Below are positions 28,449-61,470 of a stretch of DNA of 64,000 bases, piece after piece. The notes beneath the pieces are model-generated. The model did no database searches. It saw nothing but the letters and a program-made list of their open reading frames with translations, and was not told the origin of the DNA. The stretch's first letter is position 1. The number at the start of each line of letters is the position of its first letter. The stretch comes from Pseudanabaena mucicola str. Chao 1806 (GTDB taxonomy: Bacteria > Cyanobacteriota > Cyanobacteriia > Pseudanabaenales > Pseudanabaenaceae): NCBI RefSeq assembly GCF_030323025.1, contig NZ_CP097329.1:3334001-3398000 (forward strand), written 5' to 3'. The position numbers were made by a program, and so were the translations under genes.

Positions 28449-28450
28449 AT

Positions 28451-28480
28451 TAGAGAAGGGTGCTTTTGCACCCTTCTCTA
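28451..28480 (+). terminator. Terminator after fabG
   Basis: TAGAGAAGGGTGC / GCACCCTTCTCTA with a TTTT loop, immediately 3' of fabG. It shows that the cupredoxin gene starts downstream of it, at 28508, and not at the upstream ATG 28460. Confidence 0.7.
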
Positions 28481-28507
28481 AAATTTATGGAATTTAAGAG
28501 GGATCTT

Positions 28508-34045: not shown

Positions 34046-34061
34046 TTTATTTTCTAAAGTC

Positions 34062-34140
34062 GTAGTCATACAATGTAATTGTGTTGCGGGCGCAAAGCGC
34101 CCGCAACACAATTACTAAAAAAATTACTTTGCAGCAATAC
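34062..34140. repeat. Family C palindromic element (copy 1)
   Basis: The sequence runs GTAGTCATACAATGTAATTG, TGTTGCGGGCGC, AAA, GCGCCCGCAACACAATTACT, then AAAAAAATTACTTTGCAGCA. It is nearly identical to the copy at 42480-42560 except for the stem, where paired bases changed together. It separates dprA from the restriction-modification genes. Confidence 0.8.
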
Positions 34141-34143
34141 CCC

Positions 34144-34563
34144 CTAAAGTTTGCCTGTATTTGTCTTCATAATAAATCTTTCAAGAGTGAGGATTTCTAC
34201 TTGATCACCATAGGGTAAGTATTGTTGTAAATCACCTGAAATATAAAAATCCCTTAAAGTCCAGCCTTCTCCACCAAGGACTAAATAAGCCTTTTGATAA
34301 TTAGGATTTTGCTCCATTGCATCCATTAAACAGATTACTTCAAAAGGAACTTTCTGTTCTGCTGTTCCGCCTACCTGTTGCCATTTGAGAGAAATTAAAA
34401 TGTTGCGATCGCCACGATTAGCAATGACATCAATGATATGTTTGCCTCCCCCTGGACGACTGCCAATGTATTGCTGAGATTGATAAAGATAACCACCATA
34501 AATGAGGGAATGTAACACCATCTGTTCTAAAACTGCACCAGTTTCCGTATTCCGAAGACTCAT
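34144..34563 (-). CDS. Putative type II restriction endonuclease (PD-(D/E)XK fold)
   Basis: The 139-residue protein shows Asp45 (HIIDVIAN) and a strand ILISLKWQQ with Ser58-x-Lys60 in place of the usual (D/E)xK, and Glu69 and Glu75 downstream. Enzymes such as Cfr10I and EcoRII move the catalytic glutamate 12-14 residues beyond the lysine, so Glu75 (about K+15) could serve. The start ATG overlaps the stop of the methyltransferase gene (ATGA), showing coupling. It is very short for a restriction enzyme but looks complete, with GGGKH before the core and a clear end. The recognition site is unknown. Confidence 0.65.
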   Translation of the reverse strand: MSLRNTETGAVLEQMVLHSLIYGGYLYQSQQYIGSRPGGGKHIIDVIANRGDRNILISLKWQQVGGTAEQKVPFEVICLMDAMEQNPNYQKAYLVLGGEGWTLRDFYISGDLQQYLPYGDQVEILTLERFIMKTNTGKL

Positions 34564-35456
34564 GATAGTTCTAACTCCTTTGCAAATCCCTTATAAGCAA
34601 GCATTTCTTTCGCAGGGATGCGATCGCCATTGCAGCTAATCCGACGTGGAGCATTGAGAATATGAATCTTAAATCCTGAATCTTGATAGAGTTCGAGAAT
34701 TCGAGGTGTGGCTTGGTTTGATGCGATCATAGGACAATTGTGCTGAGCTAGCCAGCGTGCCAAACGTTCCTGCTCTGTCCATTCAAAGCCATTTTTAGTA
34801 TATTGACGGAAATCAACATCGTAGGGCGGGTCAGCATAAATAAAATCACCAGATTCAACAGAGATTTTGGCAAAATCAACATTAATAAAATTCCATTCAG
34901 CAAATACAAGTTTATAAGCAGAAAAGTCTCTAGTGTAGTTAATAGTCCTATGTCTACCAAAGGGAACATTAAACCCGCCATTACGATTAAATCGGCACAG
35001 ACCGTTATATCCAGTACGATTAAGATAATAAAAAATTTGGGCAGCTTGAGGAGTATTTGATCTTCCTGCGTGAATTAAGCGATTAAACTCCACTCTTTGA
35101 GTATAGTAAAACTCACGATCATTTTGAACTTCAATATCTAACTTCAATCCATGTTGTAAACATTTGTAGAAGTTCACAACATGGGGATTGATATCATTGA
35201 GGAGTGCTTGATTTGGTTGCAATCCTAGCGCGATCGCCAAGCCACCACAAAAAGGTTCAACTAAACGATAGCTACTATAATTTTGCCAAGTTTTTTGTAA
35301 ATATGGCACTAGCCAGCGTTTACCACCAGCCCATTTTAGAGGTGGAGTCAGTTGTTCTAGCTTGGACACAGGTTCAGCAATATTTGCCACTTGTTTTGCC
35401 AAGGGTTGTTTTGCCAAGGTATTTATGATCAGAGGGGAGCAGCGCATCGATGGCAT
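34560..35456 (-). CDS. DNA adenine N6-methyltransferase (Dam/D12 class)
   Basis: The 298-residue D12-class enzyme carries LKWAGGKRWLVPYL (40-53), the AdoMet motif VEPFCGG (66-72), ALLNDINPHVVNFY (84-97) and the catalytic YADPPYDVDF (207-216). This is the alpha-class order of Dam and M.DpnII. It should methylate adenine, perhaps within GATC, the centre of the abundant GCGATCGC octamer, but the site is inference. Together with the overlapping nuclease it forms a type II restriction-modification pair. Confidence 0.88.
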   Translation of the reverse strand: MPSMRCSPLIINTLAKQPLAKQVANIAEPVSKLEQLTPPLKWAGGKRWLVPYLQKTWQNYSSYRLVEPFCGGLAIALGLQPNQALLNDINPHVVNFYKCLQHGLKLDIEVQNDREFYYTQRVEFNRLIHAGRSNTPQAAQIFYYLNRTGYNGLCRFNRNGGFNVPFGRHRTINYTRDFSAYKLVFAEWNFINVDFAKISVESGDFIYADPPYDVDFRQYTKNGFEWTEQERLARWLAQHNCPMIASNQATPRILELYQDSGFKIHILNAPRRISCNGDRIPAKEMLAYKGFAKELELS

Positions 35457-35611
35457 GGCAGTAAGGAAAAGATTTTAAGCCTATCCAATCTAGCGCTATT
35501 TACTATTCTATGAGATTAAATGAAAACCAGTATTTTGGGTAAATGTAATGCGGTAATGCTTTTCAACACTCTTAAACCTGCGATTACATTCGCGCAAATG
35601 TACATCAAATT

Positions 35612-36328
35612 TTAAGCAGCAACTAGTAATCCTGCACTGGACTGTTTAGGCAATACCCTCACCACATCAATTTTGGCACAGTAGGCAATATCTTCAGCAC
35701 CATTGAGATTTAACAATCTCTTGCCATGACTTGCTTGATAAAATAGCTCCTCAACCTCACTTTTCCATGCCTTGTAAAGAGTTGCCGCAGCGACAGCCTC
35801 ATCATTACCACAGTCAGCCTCATTCTCAAGATGAGCAACGATCGCACCTGCACAGGTCGTATCTTCGAGGGAATAGCTACCTTCCCATCCCGAACCAACA
35901 ATCCATACAGTTTCAGGCTTAGTTTCTCGCAGATAGCTCAATACGGAACCAAGGTTAATCATCGCGCAAGCCAATACACTCTTAGCATTTTGGACTTTTT
36001 CCAACGATCGCGTGCCATTGGTCGTACTCATAAAAATCCGCTTACCCTTGACGACATCTGGCGTAAAATCAAAGGGAGAATTACCCAAATCAAAGCCTTC
36101 CACCGTTTTACCACCCCGCTCACCAACTCTGATGCGTAACTCGGGAGGATGGGCTTCACTCACACGCAGCAGTTCATCAAGATCAGAAAATACTTGTACT
36201 CCCTCGGCTCCTGCCGCCAGAGCAGTGGCAATGGTAGTTGTTGCTCGCAAAATATCAACGGCGATCGCGCAGTCAGGACGTTCTGTGTCAGGCACTAATT
36301 CAGGGGTGTGATAAACAAAGATTTTCAT
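35612..36328 (-). CDS. comB: 2-phosphosulfolactate phosphatase family protein
   Basis: The 238-residue protein matches Com[21 protein letters not shown] (24-43), [31 protein letters not shown] and [20 protein letters not shown]. In methanogens ComB dephosphorylates 2-phosphosulfolactate during coenzyme M synthesis. Cyanobacteria do not make coenzyme M, so the true substrate here is uncertain. It is divergent from znuA. The 155-base stretch upstream of the Dam gene shows no gene. Confidence 0.85.
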
Positions 36329-36452
36329 TTGCGGATCTAATGATTGGGCTATCTTCTATAAATTAAACTCTATGATTGCTCGTTTTGCAAGGTTTACAAA
36401 CAAGACAATGAGATTAATCTTCCCGTAAAGCACCGCATTACCATAGAAATAT

Positions 36453-36486
36453 TATCTTAAATAAGATATTATGATAATGATTATCG
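36453..36486 (+). promoter_or_regulatory. Zur-type operator upstream of znuA
   Basis: TGATAATGATTATCG (36472-36486) contains the perfect palindrome GATAAT-G-ATTATC, the form of cyanobacterial Zur boxes. Just left of it TATCTTAAATAAGATA (36453-36468) is a second palindrome. Both precede the zinc transporter gene, so zinc-dependent repression is inferred. Confidence 0.7.
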
Positions 36487-36562
36487 TTTTTATAGTTTTG
36501 CCATGTTTACTCTAGCGCCCTTACTAGTATCATGCTTAAGATCAAGTTCAAGTGGATCAAGG

Positions 36563-37585
36563 ATGAAGGCGATCGCACCTTTATTAATAGTGATCGCTAC
36601 CAGCATCAATGCTTGCACCATCACCACTAGTCCAACTGTCAGCAGTCCTAGCCCCACCACCACTTCTGCCAAAAAAGAGAGCTTGCCCCTAGTTGTAGCG
36701 ACTAATTCCGTGATCTGCGATATCGCTAGGCAAATTGCAGGGGAGACGATCAATCTCAAATGTCTCATTGAAGCTGGTACTGACCCACACCTGTATCAAC
36801 CGAAACCAGAAGACCGCAAAGCGATCGACTCTGCAAAGTTAGTTCTTTATGGCGGTTATGACTTTGAGTCAAGCCTCATCAAACTGGTTCAATCAAGTTC
36901 TAATTCTGCTCCAAAGATTGCTGTGCATGAGAAGGCGATCCCTAGTCCTCTAATTGCCACTGATGGGCATGACCATGGTCATCATGATCATAAGGAAGAT
37001 CAAAAATCTGCTAAACCTAAATATCAGGCTGATTCCCATGTGTGGAATGATGCTCAAAATGGGATCAAGATTGCTCAAACAATCAACAAAAATTTAATCA
37101 CGCTCCGTCCTGATCAAGCAGATACCTACAATCAAAACACTACGAAACTAGTTAGTGAACTTGAACAGATTGATTCTTGGATCAAAGTGCAAATTGCCAC
37201 AATTCCCGAGAGTTCACGCAAACTAGTCACGACTCACGAAGCTCTTGGATATTATGCGAAAGCCTATGGTATTCCCGTTGAAGGTGCTTTGAATGGGATT
37301 AGTACTGAGGAGCAAACCACACCAACCAGAATTAAAGAACTTGTTGAGGTTATTAAAAGTAGTAAAGTTCCCACGATCTTTGCAGAGGTATCAATCAATC
37401 CCAAGTTGATTAATGCCGTCGCTAGGGAAGCCAATGTCAAAGTTAGCGATCGCGAAATTTATGCTGACGGATTAGGCGCAAAGGGCAGCGAAGCAGAAAC
37501 CTATTCTAAAATGCTAATTGCAAATACCAAAACAATTGTCGAGGGATTAGGTGGTAAATATACGCCATTTCAATTACAAAATTAA
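36563..37585 (+). CDS. znuA: Zinc ABC transporter substrate-binding lipoprotein
   Basis: From ATG 36563 the 340-residue protein has a lipoprotein signal (MKAIAPLLIVIATSINAC, Cys18 as the lipid site). The alternative ATG 36503 lies too close to the operator and lacks a charged N-region. The protein is a cluster A-I/TroA-type metal binder with PHLYQPKPEDRKAIDSAKL, the histidine-rich loop DGHDHGHHDHKED, SHVWNDAQN and TTHEALGYYAKAYG. It binds zinc outside the membrane for the ZnuBC importer. znuB and znuC are not in the window. The operator upstream supports Zur control. Confidence 0.92.
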   Translation: MKAIAPLLIVIATSINACTITTSPTVSSPSPTTTSAKKESLPLVVATNSVICDIARQIAGETINLKCLIEAGTDPHLYQPKPEDRKAIDSAKLVLYGGYDFESSLIKLVQSSSNSAPKIAVHEKAIPSPLIATDGHDHGHHDHKEDQKSAKPKYQADSHVWNDAQNGIKIAQTINKNLITLRPDQADTYNQNTTKLVSELEQIDSWIKVQIATIPESSRKLVTTHEALGYYAKAYGIPVEGALNGISTEEQTTPTRIKELVEVIKSSKVPTIFAEVSINPKLINAVAREANVKVSDREIYADGLGAKGSEAETYSKMLIANTKTIVEGLGGKYTPFQLQN

Positions 37586-37744
37586 TGATCAATTTTTAAA
37601 ACAATACTTCTGATAGTCTAAAAAATTGTATATCTAATTTTATACAATCTCTATTATCTTAGCCTTTACTGAAATTGTCTTTAGTACTTAATTTAATAGC
37701 TAATTAACTCAAAATACTAACTTATAACTTATTGTATTATATAA

Positions 37745-38743
37745 CTATGAAAAAGTCTTCCAGAATGTTTTATAAATAGCTGCTAATTTACTCAAATAAT
37801 GAGTTGTTTTTCTTTTGAGATTTCTTCCTATACCTATCATAATTTCTTTAAGTGGTACTGGAGTCTTGTGCAAATATTTAGTTGAAGGTTTATTCTCAAT
37901 ATGGCTTAAAACCCAATCAAATACAAAAATAGGAGAATGACTTAGATTGAGAGTAACAAATTCTACTGATTGTTGCAAATGTTTGTTATAGCAATAGAAT
38001 CCATTTTCCCAATATATATTTTTCATGACCTGTCCACTCTTTAGCCTTGACATTTGATAACCTATATCTTCTCCCTGTACAATAGAATCGTCCCAAGTCT
38101 TTCCCTTTAACACCTTGCCAAGATGGTAGGTATTAAAGGACAGCTTTTGCTTGGCATTTACCCATGCACGCATCTCAGTAAATGCATATTCAGGATTAAT
38201 AATGTCGAACTCTTCTTGTTGTTTTTTTAGAAAATCATCGTCTAAAAAAAGCTGATTAATAACTATAAGATATTGTTTGAGTATGCATGTTTTAACAAAT
38301 CCATTAAGACCATTACCGTTACATTGCTCTGTTGAGTCATAATCCGAAAAATACTCGCTAAATTTGCTGAGATCCTTTAAAATTATTGTATCGGAATCAA
38401 AATGCCAAAATGATTCAAGCTGCATTTTTTGAGCTAGTTCATAGACATAAAACCATCTTTCAAATACATACATTAACCAGTTTCTTCCATTTCTAATTAG
38501 TGGATGAAAAGTGCCCTTTATGGGCTTGAATACTCTATAAAATTCAGTTCTTAAATCAGACTCCACTAAAGAATTAAAATGATGATGTTCAACATGGTTA
38601 CTAGTTGCTAATTCCAAATTATTGTCATCCCCAATCAGAATTACTTTTGTATTCTGGTTAGTGAGTTTTGCACATCTCAGGGTTTTTGAGAGATAAGCAC
38701 TATGACCATAGTGCGTAAAAATAATAGGATTAGGAATACTCAT
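37745..38743 (-). CDS. Glycosyltransferase-like protein (GT-A type)
   Basis: The 332-residue protein opens with PIIFTHYGHSAYLSKTLRCA, has VILIGDDNNLELA, and the candidate metal-binding FWHFDSDTIILKDL (DxD-like DSD) near residue 117. The layout is that of capsular or LPS-type glycosyltransferases with a GT-A fold, but I cannot assign the family. Its AT content is high compared with its neighbours, which may indicate transfer. It stands alone, with 159 bases of AT-rich DNA and no gene after its stop. Confidence 0.6.
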   Translation of the reverse strand: MSIPNPIIFTHYGHSAYLSKTLRCAKLTNQNTKVILIGDDNNLELATSNHVEHHHFNSLVESDLRTEFYRVFKPIKGTFHPLIRNGRNWLMYVFERWFYVYELAQKMQLESFWHFDSDTIILKDLSKFSEYFSDYDSTEQCNGNGLNGFVKTCILKQYLIVINQLFLDDDFLKKQQEEFDIINPEYAFTEMRAWVNAKQKLSFNTYHLGKVLKGKTWDDSIVQGEDIGYQMSRLKSGQVMKNIYWENGFYCYNKHLQQSVEFVTLNLSHSPIFVFDWVLSHIENKPSTKYLHKTPVPLKEIMIGIGRNLKRKTTHYLSKLAAIYKTFWKTFS

Positions 38744-38794
38744 TGCTATTAATCAGTTTCTGTTTATATGATATGAGATTTTAACTGGTACATT

Positions 38795-38894
38795 CTATTG
38801 AAGCTTTGGGTAGCACAGAAATATTTTTAAAAGTGGCGCTTTGCACCACTTTTAAAAATATTTCTGGGTTTTGAGTAAGCGCAAAGTGCTGTAA
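38795..38894. repeat. Family A palindromic element (reverse orientation)
   Basis: In reverse complement it reads TTACAGCACTTTGCGCTTAC, TCAAAACCCAGAAATATT, then a TTTAAAAGTGG stem with a TGCAAAGCG tip, AATATTTCTGTGCTACCCAA and AGCTTCAATAG. The arms match the copy at 10003-10110, while the stem differs. Confidence 0.78.
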
Positions 38895-38944
38895 GTATAA
38901 GCTCATAGGAATGAATAGGTTTAGTGAAATTCAGGGACAAGATA

Positions 38945-38987
38945 GCATTAAGGATGGGCGGCGCGAAGCACCACCCATCCTTAATGC
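38945..38987. repeat. Family D palindrome
   Basis: GCATTAAGGATGGG and CCCATCCTTAATGC flank a CGGCGCGAAGCACCA tip containing GCGAAGC. It sits just downstream of the metallophosphatase stop and could terminate it. Confidence 0.72.
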
Positions 38988-38992
38988 AAGAT

Positions 38993-39988
38993 TTAGGCGA
39001 TATTTTTGGTAATGATGGAACGATCAAATACTTTGCCATTGGTAGCGATCGCTTTGGTGATGATCTTATCTTGATAGACATCAAAAGTCATGAAACTAAA
39101 CTGGGCGCTTACAAAAGCGGTTTGTGGCGATCGCCCAAATTTGTATAGTGGTGCGCCGCCGCCGCCATTGACGATATAGGTAGTGCCATTGATCGGGTTA
39201 AACCTTTCATATCCATGATCATGTCCACAGAGATATAAAGGCACTTTATGCTTAGCAAAAATTGGTGCGAGTTTAGCGGCTAATTCGCGATTGCTGCCAT
39301 GTCTACCAGAAGAATAGAGGGGATGATGCCCATACACGATTTTCCAAGGGGCAGTACTTTTCGCTAGTTGCTGATCGAGCCATGCTAGTTGCGCTTCCCA
39401 AGCAGCATTACTATTCGTATCAAGGGCAAAAAATTCTACGGTTCCTTCTTTGACATCACCTTGAGTAAAGGAATAGTAGCGATCGCTCATGTTAAAGGGT
39501 TTGTAGTTAATTTGGTCGAGACCATTATTAGATTTGATAATGTCGTGGTTGCCTAGCACCGCATAAAATTTCACATTCTCCTTGAGCAATGGTGCATAGG
39601 GTTCTTCAAAATATGCTTTAGCTAATTTAATTTCCCCATAGGAGTAAATGTTATCGCCTGCCATCAAGACAAAGGCATAGGGCTTTTGCTGGTAGGTTTC
39701 CCACATTGACTTAGCTACCGCAAATTGATCGGGGCTACCAAAACCGTTATCGGCGATCGCGGCAAAACGCAGTAACGGCTCCTCTGTAGTTTCAAGACTG
39801 ATCTCATTATTGTCCTTATTTGCCTCAGCTAAATTATTGGCAGATGGTGATGTAGGCGACTGGGTGGCGGCTGATTCGTATGTGGTTTGATTTTTGGATT
39901 TTGAGATCGCATCATAAATCAAGGTCCCAATCACAGGAACTCCTATCAAGGCTCCACCCACTGCGAATAAAAGCTGACGGCGTTTCAT
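38993..39988 (-). CDS. Secreted metallophosphoesterase (purple acid phosphatase-like)
   Basis: The 331-residue protein has an N-terminal KRRQLLFAVGGALIGVPVIG signal with paired arginines (possible Tat export). The calcineurin-type metal motifs follow in order: IADNG, AGDNIYSYG, LGNHD, YGHHPLYSSGRHG and CGHDHGYERF. These residues bind a two-metal centre and hydrolyse phosphate esters outside the cytoplasm. A Ser/Asn/Thr-rich linker (36-70) separates signal and domain. It may help scavenge phosphate, but no Pho box was identified. Confidence 0.85.
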   Translation of the reverse strand: MKRRQLLFAVGGALIGVPVIGTLIYDAISKSKNQTTYESAATQSPTSPSANNLAEANKDNNEISLETTEEPLLRFAAIADNGFGSPDQFAVAKSMWETYQQKPYAFVLMAGDNIYSYGEIKLAKAYFEEPYAPLLKENVKFYAVLGNHDIIKSNNGLDQINYKPFNMSDRYYSFTQGDVKEGTVEFFALDTNSNAAWEAQLAWLDQQLAKSTAPWKIVYGHHPLYSSGRHGSNRELAAKLAPIFAKHKVPLYLCGHDHGYERFNPINGTTYIVNGGGGAPLYKFGRSPQTAFVSAQFSFMTFDVYQDKIITKAIATNGKVFDRSIITKNIA

Positions 39989-40063
39989 AAAGTTCTTCTA
40001 CTAGATCCTACTTGTATCAATTCCAATTTACCAAGAAATAAATTTTGGTAGTGATGATTTTTT

Positions 40064-40102
40064 GGTAAGGATAGGTAGCGCTTCGCGCTGTCCATCCTTA
40101 CC
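40064..40102. repeat. Family D palindrome
   Basis: GGTAAGGATAGGTAGCGC and GCGCTGTCCATCCTTACC flank a TTC loop (GCGCTTCGCGC tip). It lies between the divergent phosphatase and rlmN genes. Confidence 0.68.
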
Positions 40103-40194
40103 CTCTATAAATTTTTTGGTGTAAAGCCTGAGATCAAGCGTTCATTCTAATTTTTGAGTAAACTTAAGGTGTTCGCCCATTTCCCTGTGCTACT

Positions 40195-41268
40195 ATGACC
40201 GTCAATACTTTACCCAAACCTTTGACTCAAGCCCTACCTCTCTTGGGGCGATCGCTCGCTGAATTAACGGCATGGGTAGAAACGCAGGGTCAACCCCGCT
40301 ATCGTGGTAAGCAGCTTTATGAATGGCTCTATATCAAAGGGGCAAGAAATTTAGCAGATATTACGGTTTTCCCTAAGTCATGGCGTGAACAATTTGCCGC
40401 GAATCCAACTGTGGAAATTGGGCGATCGCAAATTCATTTGCATAAGCAAAGTCGTGATGGCACGGAGAAATTTCTACTTCAGCTAGCTGATGGTGAAATC
40501 CTAGAAACAGTAGGCATTCCTACCAGTAAGCGTTTGACAGTTTGTGTATCCACTCAAGTGGGCTGTCCGATGGCATGTGATTTTTGTGCCACAGGTAAAG
40601 GGGGATTTCGACGCAACTTAGCAAAGCATGAAATTATCGATCAAGTGCTAACTGTCCAAGAAGTAATGCAGCAAAGGGTTAGCCATATTGTCTTCATGGG
40701 TATGGGTGAGCCATTGCTGAATTTTGAGAATCTGGTTGGAGCAATTCATGTGATCAATCAAGATATCGGCATCGGACAGCGCAATATCACCGTTTCCACC
40801 GTCGGTATTCCCAATCAAATTCCTAGATTCGCAAAGGAACATCTCCAAGTTACGCTCGCAGTCAGCCTCCATGCTCCCAATCAAAAGATTCGTGCTCAAG
40901 TAATTCCCTCCGCCGATCGCTATCCTCTAGAATCCCTAATGGATGATTGCCGAGCCTATGTGGAAATCACGGGTCGCAGGATTAGTTTTGAATATACTTT
41001 GCTAGCGGGAGTGAATGACTCTACTGCTAATGCACAGGAACTTGCCCACTTAATTCGTGGCTTCCAAAGTCATGTCAATTTGATTCCCTACAATCCCGTC
41101 AACGATGCGGATTACCAACGTCCTAGTGAAAGAGCAATTCAAGCCTTTGTGCAAACCTTAGAAGGATCAAAAATCGCAGTCAGTGTCCGCCGTACTAGAG
41201 GCTTAGAAGCAGATGCTGCATGTGGACAACTCCGAGGACAAGTTACAAATGGCACACAAAGGCAATAA
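40195..41268 (+). CDS. rlmN: 23S rRNA (adenine2503-C2)-methyltransferase RlmN
   Basis: The 357-residue radical SAM enzyme has the cluster motif [11 protein letters not shown] (Cys124, Cys128, Cys131), preceded by [11 protein letters not shown]. Further motifs are [20 protein letters not shown]-like [18 protein letters not shown] and the C-terminal methyl-carrying cysteine in [11 protein letters not shown]. It methylates A2503 of 23S rRNA and A37 of certain tRNAs. Its 3' end overlaps the start of a DUF2256 gene, which in turn overlaps cobT. Confidence 0.95.
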
Positions 41269-41395
41269 ATCCTTTTTACCTAGCAAAGATTGTGTGATTT
41301 GCGGTAAACCCTTCTCATGGCGGAAGAAATGGGAAAAATGTTGGGACGAAGTAAAGTACTGTAGTGATCGCTGTCGTCGACAGAAAAGTAAATGA
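41249..41395 (+). CDS. DUF2256 small zinc-finger-like protein
   Basis: From ATG 41249 (48 residues) it reads [20 protein letters not shown] followed by [12 protein letters not shown]. This is the DUF2256 pattern of two CxxC-type pairs with a basic middle. The function is unknown. A longer frame from 41213 is open, but the family normally begins shortly before KG..FLPSK. It overlaps the end of rlmN by 20 bases and cobT by 4 bases (ATGA), so the three genes are translationally coupled. Confidence 0.75.
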
Positions 41396-42465
41396 TCAAA
41401 ACCTACACACAACGCAAAAAAGCCAAAGCTTGGCTCAAAAGCTATCGTGGTAAACGTCCAGTATTTGCCTGTGTGCTAGGTTTCACCGAAACAGGACTAA
41501 TTCCCAATATCTCAGCAGCAGGAGCAACGCCTGAGGACCGCAAATACACTGCGATCGCTGATGCCGAATTTCTCGCCACAGGTAAAAATATCAATTTCCC
41601 TTTACCGCCTCTAGTGGCAGGTGCATCACCTGTATTAATTTCCCGTGCTGTTGTTGCCACGCAGGAATTACCCCTATTTATTTTCGATGCAGGTTTAGTG
41701 ATCGCTCCGACCGTAGAAACAATTGATCTCGGCGGATGTCCTGCTAAATGTGTGAGTACAGGTCAGGCGCTTAGTTTAGAAAAGGTTCTGCAATTATTTG
41801 TGCAAGGACTGGTATGGGGTGAAAAGTTGTCCCAATTAGGAGCCTATGTCATTTTGAGTGAATGTGTAGTGGGTGGTACGACTACAGCTCTAGCGGTTTT
41901 AACAGGATTAGGCATTGATGCGAAGGATAAAGTTAATAGTTCCCATCCCACCTGCAACCATTCCCAAAAGTGGGAAATTGTTCAAGCTGGTTTAGCTCAT
42001 CTTTGCCCTGATGCCAATCCCTTTGAAGTAGTGGCAGCAGTGGGCGATCCGATGCAAATTGTTGTTGCAGGTATGGCGATCGCTGCCAGTCGGCACAGTG
42101 GCGTATTACTCGCAGGTGGAACCCAAATGCTTGCGGTCTACTCTCTAGCAAGAGCGATCGCCAATTATCAAAAACTCGTATGGAATCCAGAAGTGATCAT
42201 GATCGGCACAACTCGATGGGTTGCCGAAGATGCTACAGGTAAGACCATTGACTTAGCCTTAGCTGTGCAAGATGTTCCATTACTAGCTACCCAATTGAGC
42301 TTTGCTAAGTCCCAATTTCCCCAGCTACGCGCCTACGAGCAGGGCTTTGTCAAAGAAGGTGTGGGGGCAGGTGGTGCAGCGATCGCTGCCCATCTCTATC
42401 AAAACTGGACACAGGAAAAGTTATTAGGCGCGATTGAATCACAGTTACACATAGCTGTAGTCTGA
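41392..42465 (+). CDS. cobT: Nicotinate mononucleotide-dimethylbenzimidazole phosphoribosyltransferase-like protein
   Basis: The 357-residue protein is of the CobT-like UPF0284 type in cyanobacteria and archaea. It has [60 protein letters not shown] and [20 protein letters not shown]. CobT activates the lower base for cobamide assembly. Most cyanobacteria make pseudocobalamin with adenine, so the base used here is uncertain. It overlaps DUF2256 by 4 bases. A cobU gene lies 15 kb away. Confidence 0.85.
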
Positions 42466-42479
42466 CATTTAGATTTGGG

Positions 42480-42560
42480 GTAGTCATGCAATGTAATTGT
42501 GTTGTGAGCGCGAAGCGCTCGCAACACAATTACTAAAAAAATTACTTTGCCGCATTACCT
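42480..42560. repeat. Family C palindromic element (copy 2)
   Basis: It repeats the family C layout of 34062-34140: GTAGTCATGCAATGTAATTG, TGTTGTGAGCGC, GAA, GCGCTCGCAACACAATTACT, then AAAAAAATTACTTTGC. Stem positions GG/CC in copy 1 are (G)A/T(C) here, preserving pairing. The tip is GCGAAGC. Confidence 0.8.
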
Positions 42561-53665: not shown

Positions 53666-53690
53666 CAAAGCCTTGCTAAGCAAGGCTTTG
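53666..53690 (-). terminator. Stem-loop after thiC
   Basis: CAAAGCCTTGC / GCAAGGCTTTG is preceded on the plus strand by a T-run (TTTTTT near 53655), about 75 bases beyond the thiC stop on the minus strand. It may be an ordinary terminator or another copy of the CCTTGCT(A)AGCAAGG stem type. Confidence 0.5.
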
Positions 53691-59426: not shown

Positions 59427-59525
59427 TATAGCGCTTTTCAATCAAGCGAAGAACATAGACAGGTTTGTTTCACCGCCTTTGGCGGTGAAACAAACCTGTA
59501 CTTCACCAGACTGGTAAACGCTATA
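59427..59525. repeat. Family B palindromic element
   Basis: The ends are TATAGCGCTTTTCAATCAAG and ACTGGTAAACGCTATA. The core AGGTTTGTTTCACCGCC, TTT, GGCGGTGAAACAAACCT is identical to that at 5221-5257. It lies in a 310-base gap (59392-59701) that holds no gene but three hairpins in a row. Confidence 0.78.
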
Positions 59526-60151: not shown

Positions 60152-60334
60152 TTAGTTTCGATCTCCTGTAGCTGTCCTAGAGATACAGTGGTTTTCATTT
60201 TGCCTACGGCAAAATGAAAACTCAAAAACTTTTTCAGTATCAGCCTCGAAATACTTTTTGATCACTAGGGATGGTGAATAGCACAAATCTTCAGAATGAT
60301 CTGGCCAAGCAATTTGAAAATGGACTTCAGACAT
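60152..60334 (-). pseudogene. MSMEG_0570-type small protein gene, disrupted
   Basis: From ATG 60334 the frame gives MSEVHFQIAWPDHSEDLCYS and SPSLVIKKYFEADTE, which matches the N-terminus of MSMEG_0570 family nitrogen-starvation-response proteins (normally about 95 residues). After KVFEFS the sequence enters a palindrome and continues with an unrelated tail to a stop at 60152. The conserved C-terminal half is missing. It begins 7 bases after a methyltransferase gene. Confidence 0.65.
60191..60221. repeat. Perfect palindrome at the break point of a small gene
   Basis: GTTTTCATTTTGCC and GGCAAAATGAAAAC enclose TAC. It lies inside the reading frame of the MSMEG_0570-type gene at the place where its conserved sequence ends. 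Confidence 0.75.
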
Positions 60335-61307: not shown

Positions 61308-61470
61308 TCGACGCTTTGCGCTTACTTATAGCGCTTTTAAAACAATCCTCTGTACTTCGCTAAACTGGGAAATGCTATAAACCCTAGAAATATTTTTGAA
61401 AGTGCAGCGAAGCGGCACTTTCAAAAATATTTCTGTACTACTCAAAACCTCAATAGGCTGTATTAGGAGA
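61308..61470. repeat. Family A element interrupted by a family B element
   Basis: The A arm CGACGCTTTGCGCTTACTTA is followed by the B insertion (61327-61379, TATAGCGC...TGCTATA) and then A resumes as AACCCTAGAAATATT. A TTTGAAAGTGC stem with an AGCGAAGCG tip follows, then AATATTTCTGTACTACTCAA and CCTCAATAGGCTG. The B insert lacks the central palindrome seen at 59427. Confidence 0.72.
61327..61379. mobile_element. Short family B element nested in a family A arm
   Basis: A 53-bp unit, TATAGCGCTTTT...GTACTTCGCTAAACTGGG...AAATGCTATA, occupies the point between the ACTTA and AACCC parts of a family A arm. The flanking TA may be a duplicated target. Confidence 0.6.

Follow-up and report, generated by a model that had tools for sequence, protein, structure and literature searches.

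Hairpin loop inversion and compensated stem changes in a miniature transposable element of Pseudanabaena mucicola, probably caused by replication template switching

Coordinated substitutions on both arms of a stem commonly count as proof that an RNA structure is under selection. Inverted repeats are known to undergo template switching from one arm to the other, which turns the spacer around and makes the arms alike (PMC8604942; PMC8794818). The same process is addressed with quasipalindrome reporters in Escherichia coli in PMC7202029, and the introduction of PMC8604942 mentions that an earlier analysis of proteobacteria had already suggested repeated template switching. The case described here comes from a stretch of 64,000 nucleotides of the cyanobacterium Pseudanabaena mucicola str. 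Chao 1806 (NZ_CP097329.1, positions 3,334,001 to 3,398,000 of the forward strand; hereafter the window), which harbours two copies of a short, mobile palindromic element. Many hairpins of this element are found inverted in place between two genomes of the species, with a dependence on stem and loop length that extends to unrelated hairpins, and two-sided changes in the stems of the element exceed chance. It seems likely that these hairpins are hotspots of replication template switching, a process that would invert their loops and would have generated many of their compensated pairs.

The element is represented by at least 108 distinct copies or fragments in the Chao 1806 genome (G000; 4.53 Mb in one contig), as retrieved by a genome search and extracted with their flanks. 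Its consensus is non-coding and spans 81 bp: between a left end (GGTAGTCATGCAAT) and a tail (TAAAAAAATTACTTTGCAGCACTACC) lie the two arms of a 19-bp stem, separated by a loop of 3 bases, which together form a perfect hairpin. The ends form terminal inverted repeats (GGTAGTCATGCAA and GGTAGTGCTGCAA, equal at 11 of 13 positions). Among the 80 copies with both ends (the other 20 of the 100 stem-intact copies have no recognisable ends and were left out), 26 have an exact target duplication of 8 bp at their flanks, and 45 show at least seven equal flank bases out of eight, for which shuffled flanks give an expectation of 0.8. Because of its terminal inverted repeats and of the 8-bp duplication, the element is a miniature inverted-repeat transposable element (MITE). 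The initial annotation had drawn attention to the two window copies, which are present as placed and 91% identical over 80 bases; their true spans, both on the + strand and 81 bp in length, are 34061-34141 (copy 1) and 42479-42559 (copy 2). Copy 1 is made up of a left end (34061-34073), a stem (34075-34093 and 34097-34115) enclosing the loop AAA (34094-34096), and the tail with the right end (34116-34141, + strand). The loop of copy 2 differs (GAA), and its stem departs from that of copy 1 by a compensated change at pair 15 (G-C to A-T) and a one-sided change at pair 13 (C-G to T·G); the two stems had been quoted correctly, and only one of the two differences is matched on both arms. The 3' tail, for which a function had been suspected, is indeed conserved, and transposition accounts for this conservation, since the tail is the right end of an element that moves with inverted ends and leaves an 8-bp duplication.

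Evidence for inversion in place comes from the comparison of G000 with a second genome of the same species (G006). Flanks could be matched on both sides for 79 distinct copies (82 pairs), of which five non-hairpins were left out, and the flanks of the two genomes differ at 130 of 32,859 bases (0.40%). Among the 74 orthologous hairpins thus obtained, including L113 with its shortened stem, 37 are identical between the genomes, the loop is inverted in 25 (exactly so in 23) and 12 display substitutions only. Mismatches close to the loop were inverted together with it in four flips out of four, while mismatches at the stem foot stayed put in three cases out of three, which is the expectation for switch points located inside the stem. 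The integrity of the stem matters greatly: 24 of 50 copies with a perfect run of at least 16 pairs are flipped, against 1 of 23 copies with a shorter run (Fisher p 0.00015; one further copy with fewer than 16 pairs and another loop was set aside). Within G000, the loops of the 100 stem-intact copies, read relative to the tail, are TTC in 43 cases, GAA in 36, TTT in eight, AAA in seven and others in six. Regarding the window copies, the orthologue of copy 1 in G006 is 100% identical and unflipped, and no orthologous site was found for copy 2 in G006, where the alignment stops at window position 42438 and different sequence lies beyond.

A main result of the wider comparison is that inversion belongs to the hairpin and is not specific to the element. 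Across 352,897 aligned bases of G000 and G006, with hairpins located in G000 only and with an overlap of about 0.7 kb between two alignments in which a hairpin may count twice, inversions are also seen in hairpins of other repeat families and in single ones, and 44 distinct flipped stem-loop forms (stem of at least 12, loop of at most 9) lie outside the element, the loop being a single base in seven. Flipping encoded by the element is thus ruled out, since unrelated and single hairpins flip too. When flipped hairpins are expressed as a fraction of those flipped or in the same orientation (8 of the 93 hairpins with a stem of at least 16 and a loop of at most 9 were neither, and were left out), the values for loops of 2-9 bases are 0/558 for stems of up to 9 bp, 1/24 for stems of 10-13, 6/22 for stems of 14-15 and 40/68 for stems of 16 or more. 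At this last stem length, loops of 10-24 bases are flipped in 2 of 10 cases and one-base loops in six, with 11 in the same orientation; one-base loops were excluded from the 40/68 because a flip there equals a substitution, and their inclusion yields 46/85 for stems of at least 16 with loops of at most 9, and 1/645 for stems of up to 9. The flipped fraction rises, that is, to about one half, as for an exchange that has reached equilibrium. At a divergence of 0.40%, the lower 95% bound of the flip rate is approximately 245 flips per hairpin per substitution per site for all hairpins and 140 for the element alone, two figures that rest on overlapping sets, given that the element contributes 14 of the 85 hairpins.

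The stems of the element carry a second signal. Over the 100 extracted copies with an intact stem frame (eight of the 108 were left out), 29 stem cells hold two-sided Watson-Crick changes, belonging to 14 types, next to one two-sided mismatch and 97 one-sided changes. Shuffling of the 3' arms (2000 shuffles) produces a mean of 3.4 two-sided cells, with a maximum of 10, and a mean of 2.8 two-sided types, with a maximum of 8, and sliding the partners by 1-3 columns leaves 0-2 two-sided cells. The shuffling ignores the kinship of copies and the 14 distinct types are hence a safer count than the 29 cells. The pairing signal is real, and two-sided changes are above chance. The initial annotation had held that pairing kept through sequence change points to selection for the hairpin or to a mechanism repairing it; the 100 copies bear out the excess over chance, but the strong form of the claim fails, as unpaired changes are the commoner ones (97 against 30 two-sided cells, or against 29 if only Watson-Crick pairs are considered). 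The distribution of changes along the stem is uneven, with eight two-sided and five one-sided types in mid-stem (pairs 5-11) versus 6 and 26 near the loop (pairs 12-19; Fisher p 0.011), and a mid-stem surplus of compensated types is what one would predict if fold-back copying starts from the inner part of the stem as its primer. At one orthologous pair of copies (L055 / L203), pair 17 is compensated in G000 (T-A) and one-sided in G006 (T·G), which might represent an intermediate of compensation, although a comparison of two strains gives no direction.

For comparison, five stretches of E. coli K-12 MG1655 (250 kb) were sampled; a sixth, from strain HS, was set aside. The K-12 stretches contain three perfect hairpins with a stem of at least 14 and a loop of at most 9, versus 14 in the hairpin-rich 64-kb window, and five of the eight listed hairpins with a stem of at least 12 were compared by 101-base queries across 5,426 genomes. 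Identity of at least 99% was observed in 5322 of 5374 matching genomes for a hairpin with stem 14 and loop 6, in 1450 of 2045 for stem 17 and loop 6, in 5339 of 5374 for stem 14 and loop 2, and in 5167 of 5375 and 3357 of 4063 for two hairpins with stem 13 and loop 4. A flip of the loop-6 hairpins would give about 94% identity, and, if a small number of partial alignments is disregarded, 0 and 1 genomes fall below 95%; for the stem 14/loop 2 hairpin and the two stem-13 hairpins a flip corresponds to 96-98% identity, and 35, 208 and 414 genomes, their orientation unread, lie at 95-99%. Flips of these five hairpins are consequently rare at most, the figures being upper bounds only. Between the two Pseudanabaena genomes, 13 of 27 hairpins with stems of 13-17 bp and loops of 2-6 are flipped, and the contrast is suggestive only, because a function is likely for several hairpins of E. 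coli. With regard to the enzymes that process hairpins, G000 has two SbcD matches above the cut-off, one ExoVII large subunit and two full-length SbcC-like matches below a cut-off that only 1 of 14 control genomes passes; the ExoI C-terminal domain is absent from G000 and, among the 14 controls, present in E. coli only. Absence of SbcCD, a hairpin nuclease, or of ExoVII is thus unsupported as a cause, SbcD, SbcC-like and ExoVII genes being present. The chances are roughly even that P. mucicola is a species with unusually active hairpin inversion, where near-perfect hairpins of at least about 16 bp behave as two-state systems at equilibrium and invert, by the lower 95% bounds, at least 140 times (element) to 245 times (all such hairpins) as fast as bases are substituted, the E. 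coli hairpins tested hardly flipping, and that the same process lies behind the compensated stems and part of the excess of spacer polymorphism in bacteria.

Replication template switching is probably the agent of these inversions, and it probably made many of the compensated pairs. In this scheme, near-perfect hairpins with a stem of at least about 14 bp and a short loop would be hotspots of DNA polymerase template switching in G000. The nascent strand would jump to the complementary template strand in one arm and return in the other, and the segment between the jumps would be copied as its reverse complement, leaving the loop and any mismatch near it inverted in place; clean inversions with mismatches carried along fit a jump of this kind. 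A nascent strand folding back on itself would copy one arm onto the other, and such fold-back copying could turn a one-sided mutation into a compensated pair or revert it. Occasional fold-back copying, primed by the stem near the loop, might provide the slower compensation. The compensated pairs can be explained without selection on an RNA. The alternative of selection or repair that had been proposed for the window copies survives as a DNA-level hairpin process, which the in-place inversions in the element and in other families demonstrate; repair would be no more than an incidental outcome of it, arising now and then, given that flips carry along the mismatches near the loop and do not mend them. 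Several observations weigh against template switching as the common cause. The mid-stem contrast weakens to p 0.12 when the four stem-foot pairs (0 two-sided versus 7 one-sided types) are added to the mid-stem group. Moreover, none of the 74 orthologous hairpin pairs shows a new compensated change, their substitutions being of other kinds, which implies that compensation proceeds far more slowly than flipping and might be due to something else. In E. coli the hairpins searched flip seldom or never, and high flipping is hence not universal; the nuclease genes are in place, and their loss does not explain the high rate. Finally, G006 is a metagenome-assembled genome (MAG).

The origin of G006 opens the possibility that the flips are artefacts of its assembly or sequencing, all the more so as flipping of about 50% is also the value for random orientation. 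We regard this as very improbable, since stems of 14-16 bp flip too and, by our reasoning, k-mers of 21-31 should resolve such stems, since element copies with broken stems hardly flip (1/23), since two small contigs of a second MAG match G006 at the one informative locus, and both genomes at copy 1, and since both loop orientations occur among the copies of the one-contig G000 alone. The flips might also be genuine and yet arise outside replication, by cruciform extrusion followed by junction cutting or through a hairpin recombinase. The long, near-perfect stem and short loop that inversion needs also favour cruciforms, and the inversions are clean and keep their mismatches, as such a route would have it. 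A site-specific enzyme is nevertheless at odds with the 44 flipped forms outside the element, in which inspection by eye, no motif test having been made, found no common sequence, and cruciform cutting would be expected to generate deletions as well, which were uncounted. This origin of the flips therefore appears unlikely.

As far as the compensated pairs are concerned, these may simply mark subfamilies of the element, if a few active sources, in which the transposase's need for a hairpin preserved both changes, spread them, and if resident copies only decay. That 8 of the 14 two-sided types are common to 2-5 copies, such as the T-A to A-T change at pair 8 found in five, and that orthologous copies have acquired no new compensated change, are in keeping with this explanation. 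The remaining six types, however, each occur in a single extracted copy, and subfamilies leave the flips unexplained, as unrelated hairpins flip too; on balance we find it doubtful as an alternative to template switching. Selection of the hairpin as an RNA or DNA structure (a terminator, a small RNA or a protein site) that favours paired changes would likewise account for two-sided changes above chance. It would also suit the location of the window copies, which begin 15 and 13 bases downstream of the preceding gene's stop codon, as well as the lower divergence from the consensus of the arms and tail (4.6%, 3.8% and 3.3%) compared with the ends (9.4% and 8.2%), although these last two values are inflated by truncated copies and by the way in which copies were found. 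This kind of selection is decidedly unlikely, and the data lend it no support: one-sided changes outnumber two-sided ones (97 versus 30), no orthologous pair in 74 is newly compensated, the arms are not more conserved than the unpaired tail, and derivatives of the element exist that have no hairpin. An intrinsic terminator was rejected on the grounds that no T run follows the hairpin on either strand, TAAAAAAATTAC being found on one and ATTG on the other.

The window itself illustrates the range of outcomes. Ten of its hairpins with a stem of at least 12 and a loop of at most 9 can be compared with G006: three are exact flips, one of them with a one-base loop, another is flipped with a one-base deletion, and six, copy 1 included, have kept their orientation. 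The positions that follow are given without strand. A hairpin of another repeat family at 38816-38866 (stem 21, loop 9) is inverted in G006 and its loop-near mismatch has moved along; the loop TAC of the hairpin at 60191-60221 (stem 14) reads GTA in G006, and the loop A of that at 53666-53690 (stem 12) reads T, a change that alone is indistinguishable from a substitution. The single hairpin at 28450-28481 (stem 14) has the loop TTTT in the window and AAAA in G006, which misses one base at the 3' edge. The orientation is the same in both genomes for a hairpin of a further family at 59459-59499 (stem 19, loop TTT) and for the one at 61386-61434 (stem 20, loop 9). Copy 1 lies tail-to-tail between what we take to be a dprA-like gene and a minus-strand pair (34144-35456), presumably resembling an adenine methyltransferase and a small partner.

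Beyond the window, the element appears confined to Pseudanabaena among the genomes of the order that were searched. Its right end has 171 matches in G006 (control, 0), copy 1 is matched in 19 of 26 Pseudanabaena genomes, its own included, and a consensus copy in 21 of 38 genomes of the order, every one of them Pseudanabaena, while the 12 genomes that represent other genera of the order give no match. In a pattern scan of named genomes, from which its own genome was perhaps excluded, all 35 matching stretches come from Pseudanabaena MAGs, 34 of them from one record set. An autonomous partner with the ends of the element was not found among the 28 and 12 end-pattern matches inspected, part of at least 104 listed, which proved to be element copies or derivatives, bar two chance matches. 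The GTAG at the start of the element prompted a reading as a REP sequence. REP or GTAG-tagged palindromes have one tagged end, no target duplication and a RAYT transposase as partner, and this reading is ruled out by the inverted repeats at both ends and the 8-bp duplication. G000 does contain one Y1 (HUH) transposase match (L039, G000:C1:3001760-3002035, about 180 aa), the product of which presumably resembles RAYT-type proteins, and no connection between L039 and the element was found. Hairpin-less derivatives of 48 bp and 36 bp are also seen in G000 (L337, L341, L336, L342, L339), and one form of 48 bp, L337, has an 8-bp duplication on its flanks, so that short forms may be mobile too. In addition, one copy (L119) is apparently broken by another palindromic repeat family with the stem GGTAGATGTGGTGCGGGC, a case of nested miniature elements, and the central bases of a truncated copy (L045 / L156) are inverted between the two strains (CACG versus CGTG).

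The Pseudanabaena genome reveals a DNA-level mutation process of hairpins that could make paired changes without selection, and calls for caution where RNA families are inferred from covariation in palindromic repeats. From the steep rise with stem length one obtains a curve of inversion rates for hairpins in a natural bacterium, and the contrast that E. coli offers renders it directly testable which replication or nuclease factor sets the rate. If the process is general, loop flips counted as clustered single-nucleotide variants would inflate the distances between strains, and they could explain part of the published excess of variation in hairpin loops.

The type of mutation is already known, and the element is a further MITE. 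As in bacterial MITEs (PMC10969869), the Pseudanabaena element is short and non-coding, has terminal inverted repeats and a target duplication and reaches a high copy number; it is unlike them in that no autonomous partner was found for it. Perfect arms, short spacers, in-place spacer inversion, recurrent flip-flop between strains and homogenisation of arms were all reported by Abraham and Hazkani-Covo (2021; PMC8604942), whose ten inversions, flanked by arms of 10-16 bp, came from genes coding for proteins in 50 yeast strains, whereas in Pseudanabaena about half of the long hairpins compared are inverted between two strains. Monttinen and Loytynoja (2022; PMC8794818) similarly derived compensatory changes and loop inversions from one mutation process, with 69 loop-inversion patterns in rRNA and two bacterial examples in a figure legend; rRNA is under strong selection and loop inversion is rare there, while the mobile-element and other hairpins of Pseudanabaena saturate. 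The small inversions of hairpin loops in plastids (PMC6824564, which cites Kim and Lee 2005) are also flip-flopping and homoplastic, six of 11 lying between tail-to-tail genes, yet they comprise 11 loci in 20 plastomes, with one stem shown at 9 bp, as opposed to flip frequencies resolved by stem length across 353 kb of a bacterial chromosome. In this literature, of which our coverage is partial, no bacterial chromosome with long-hairpin flips saturated between close strains was found. A close bacterial counterpart is a 2026 survey (PMC13155455), in which the spacers of inverted repeats vary more than the arms within species, most strongly near terminators. The survey counts single-nucleotide variants, and in its text the term "template switch" does not occur and "inversion" does so twice, regarding the origin of very long repeats and human cells. 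In-place spacer inversion, as seen in Pseudanabaena, is hence a possible cause for part of the excess of spacer variation that this survey describes.

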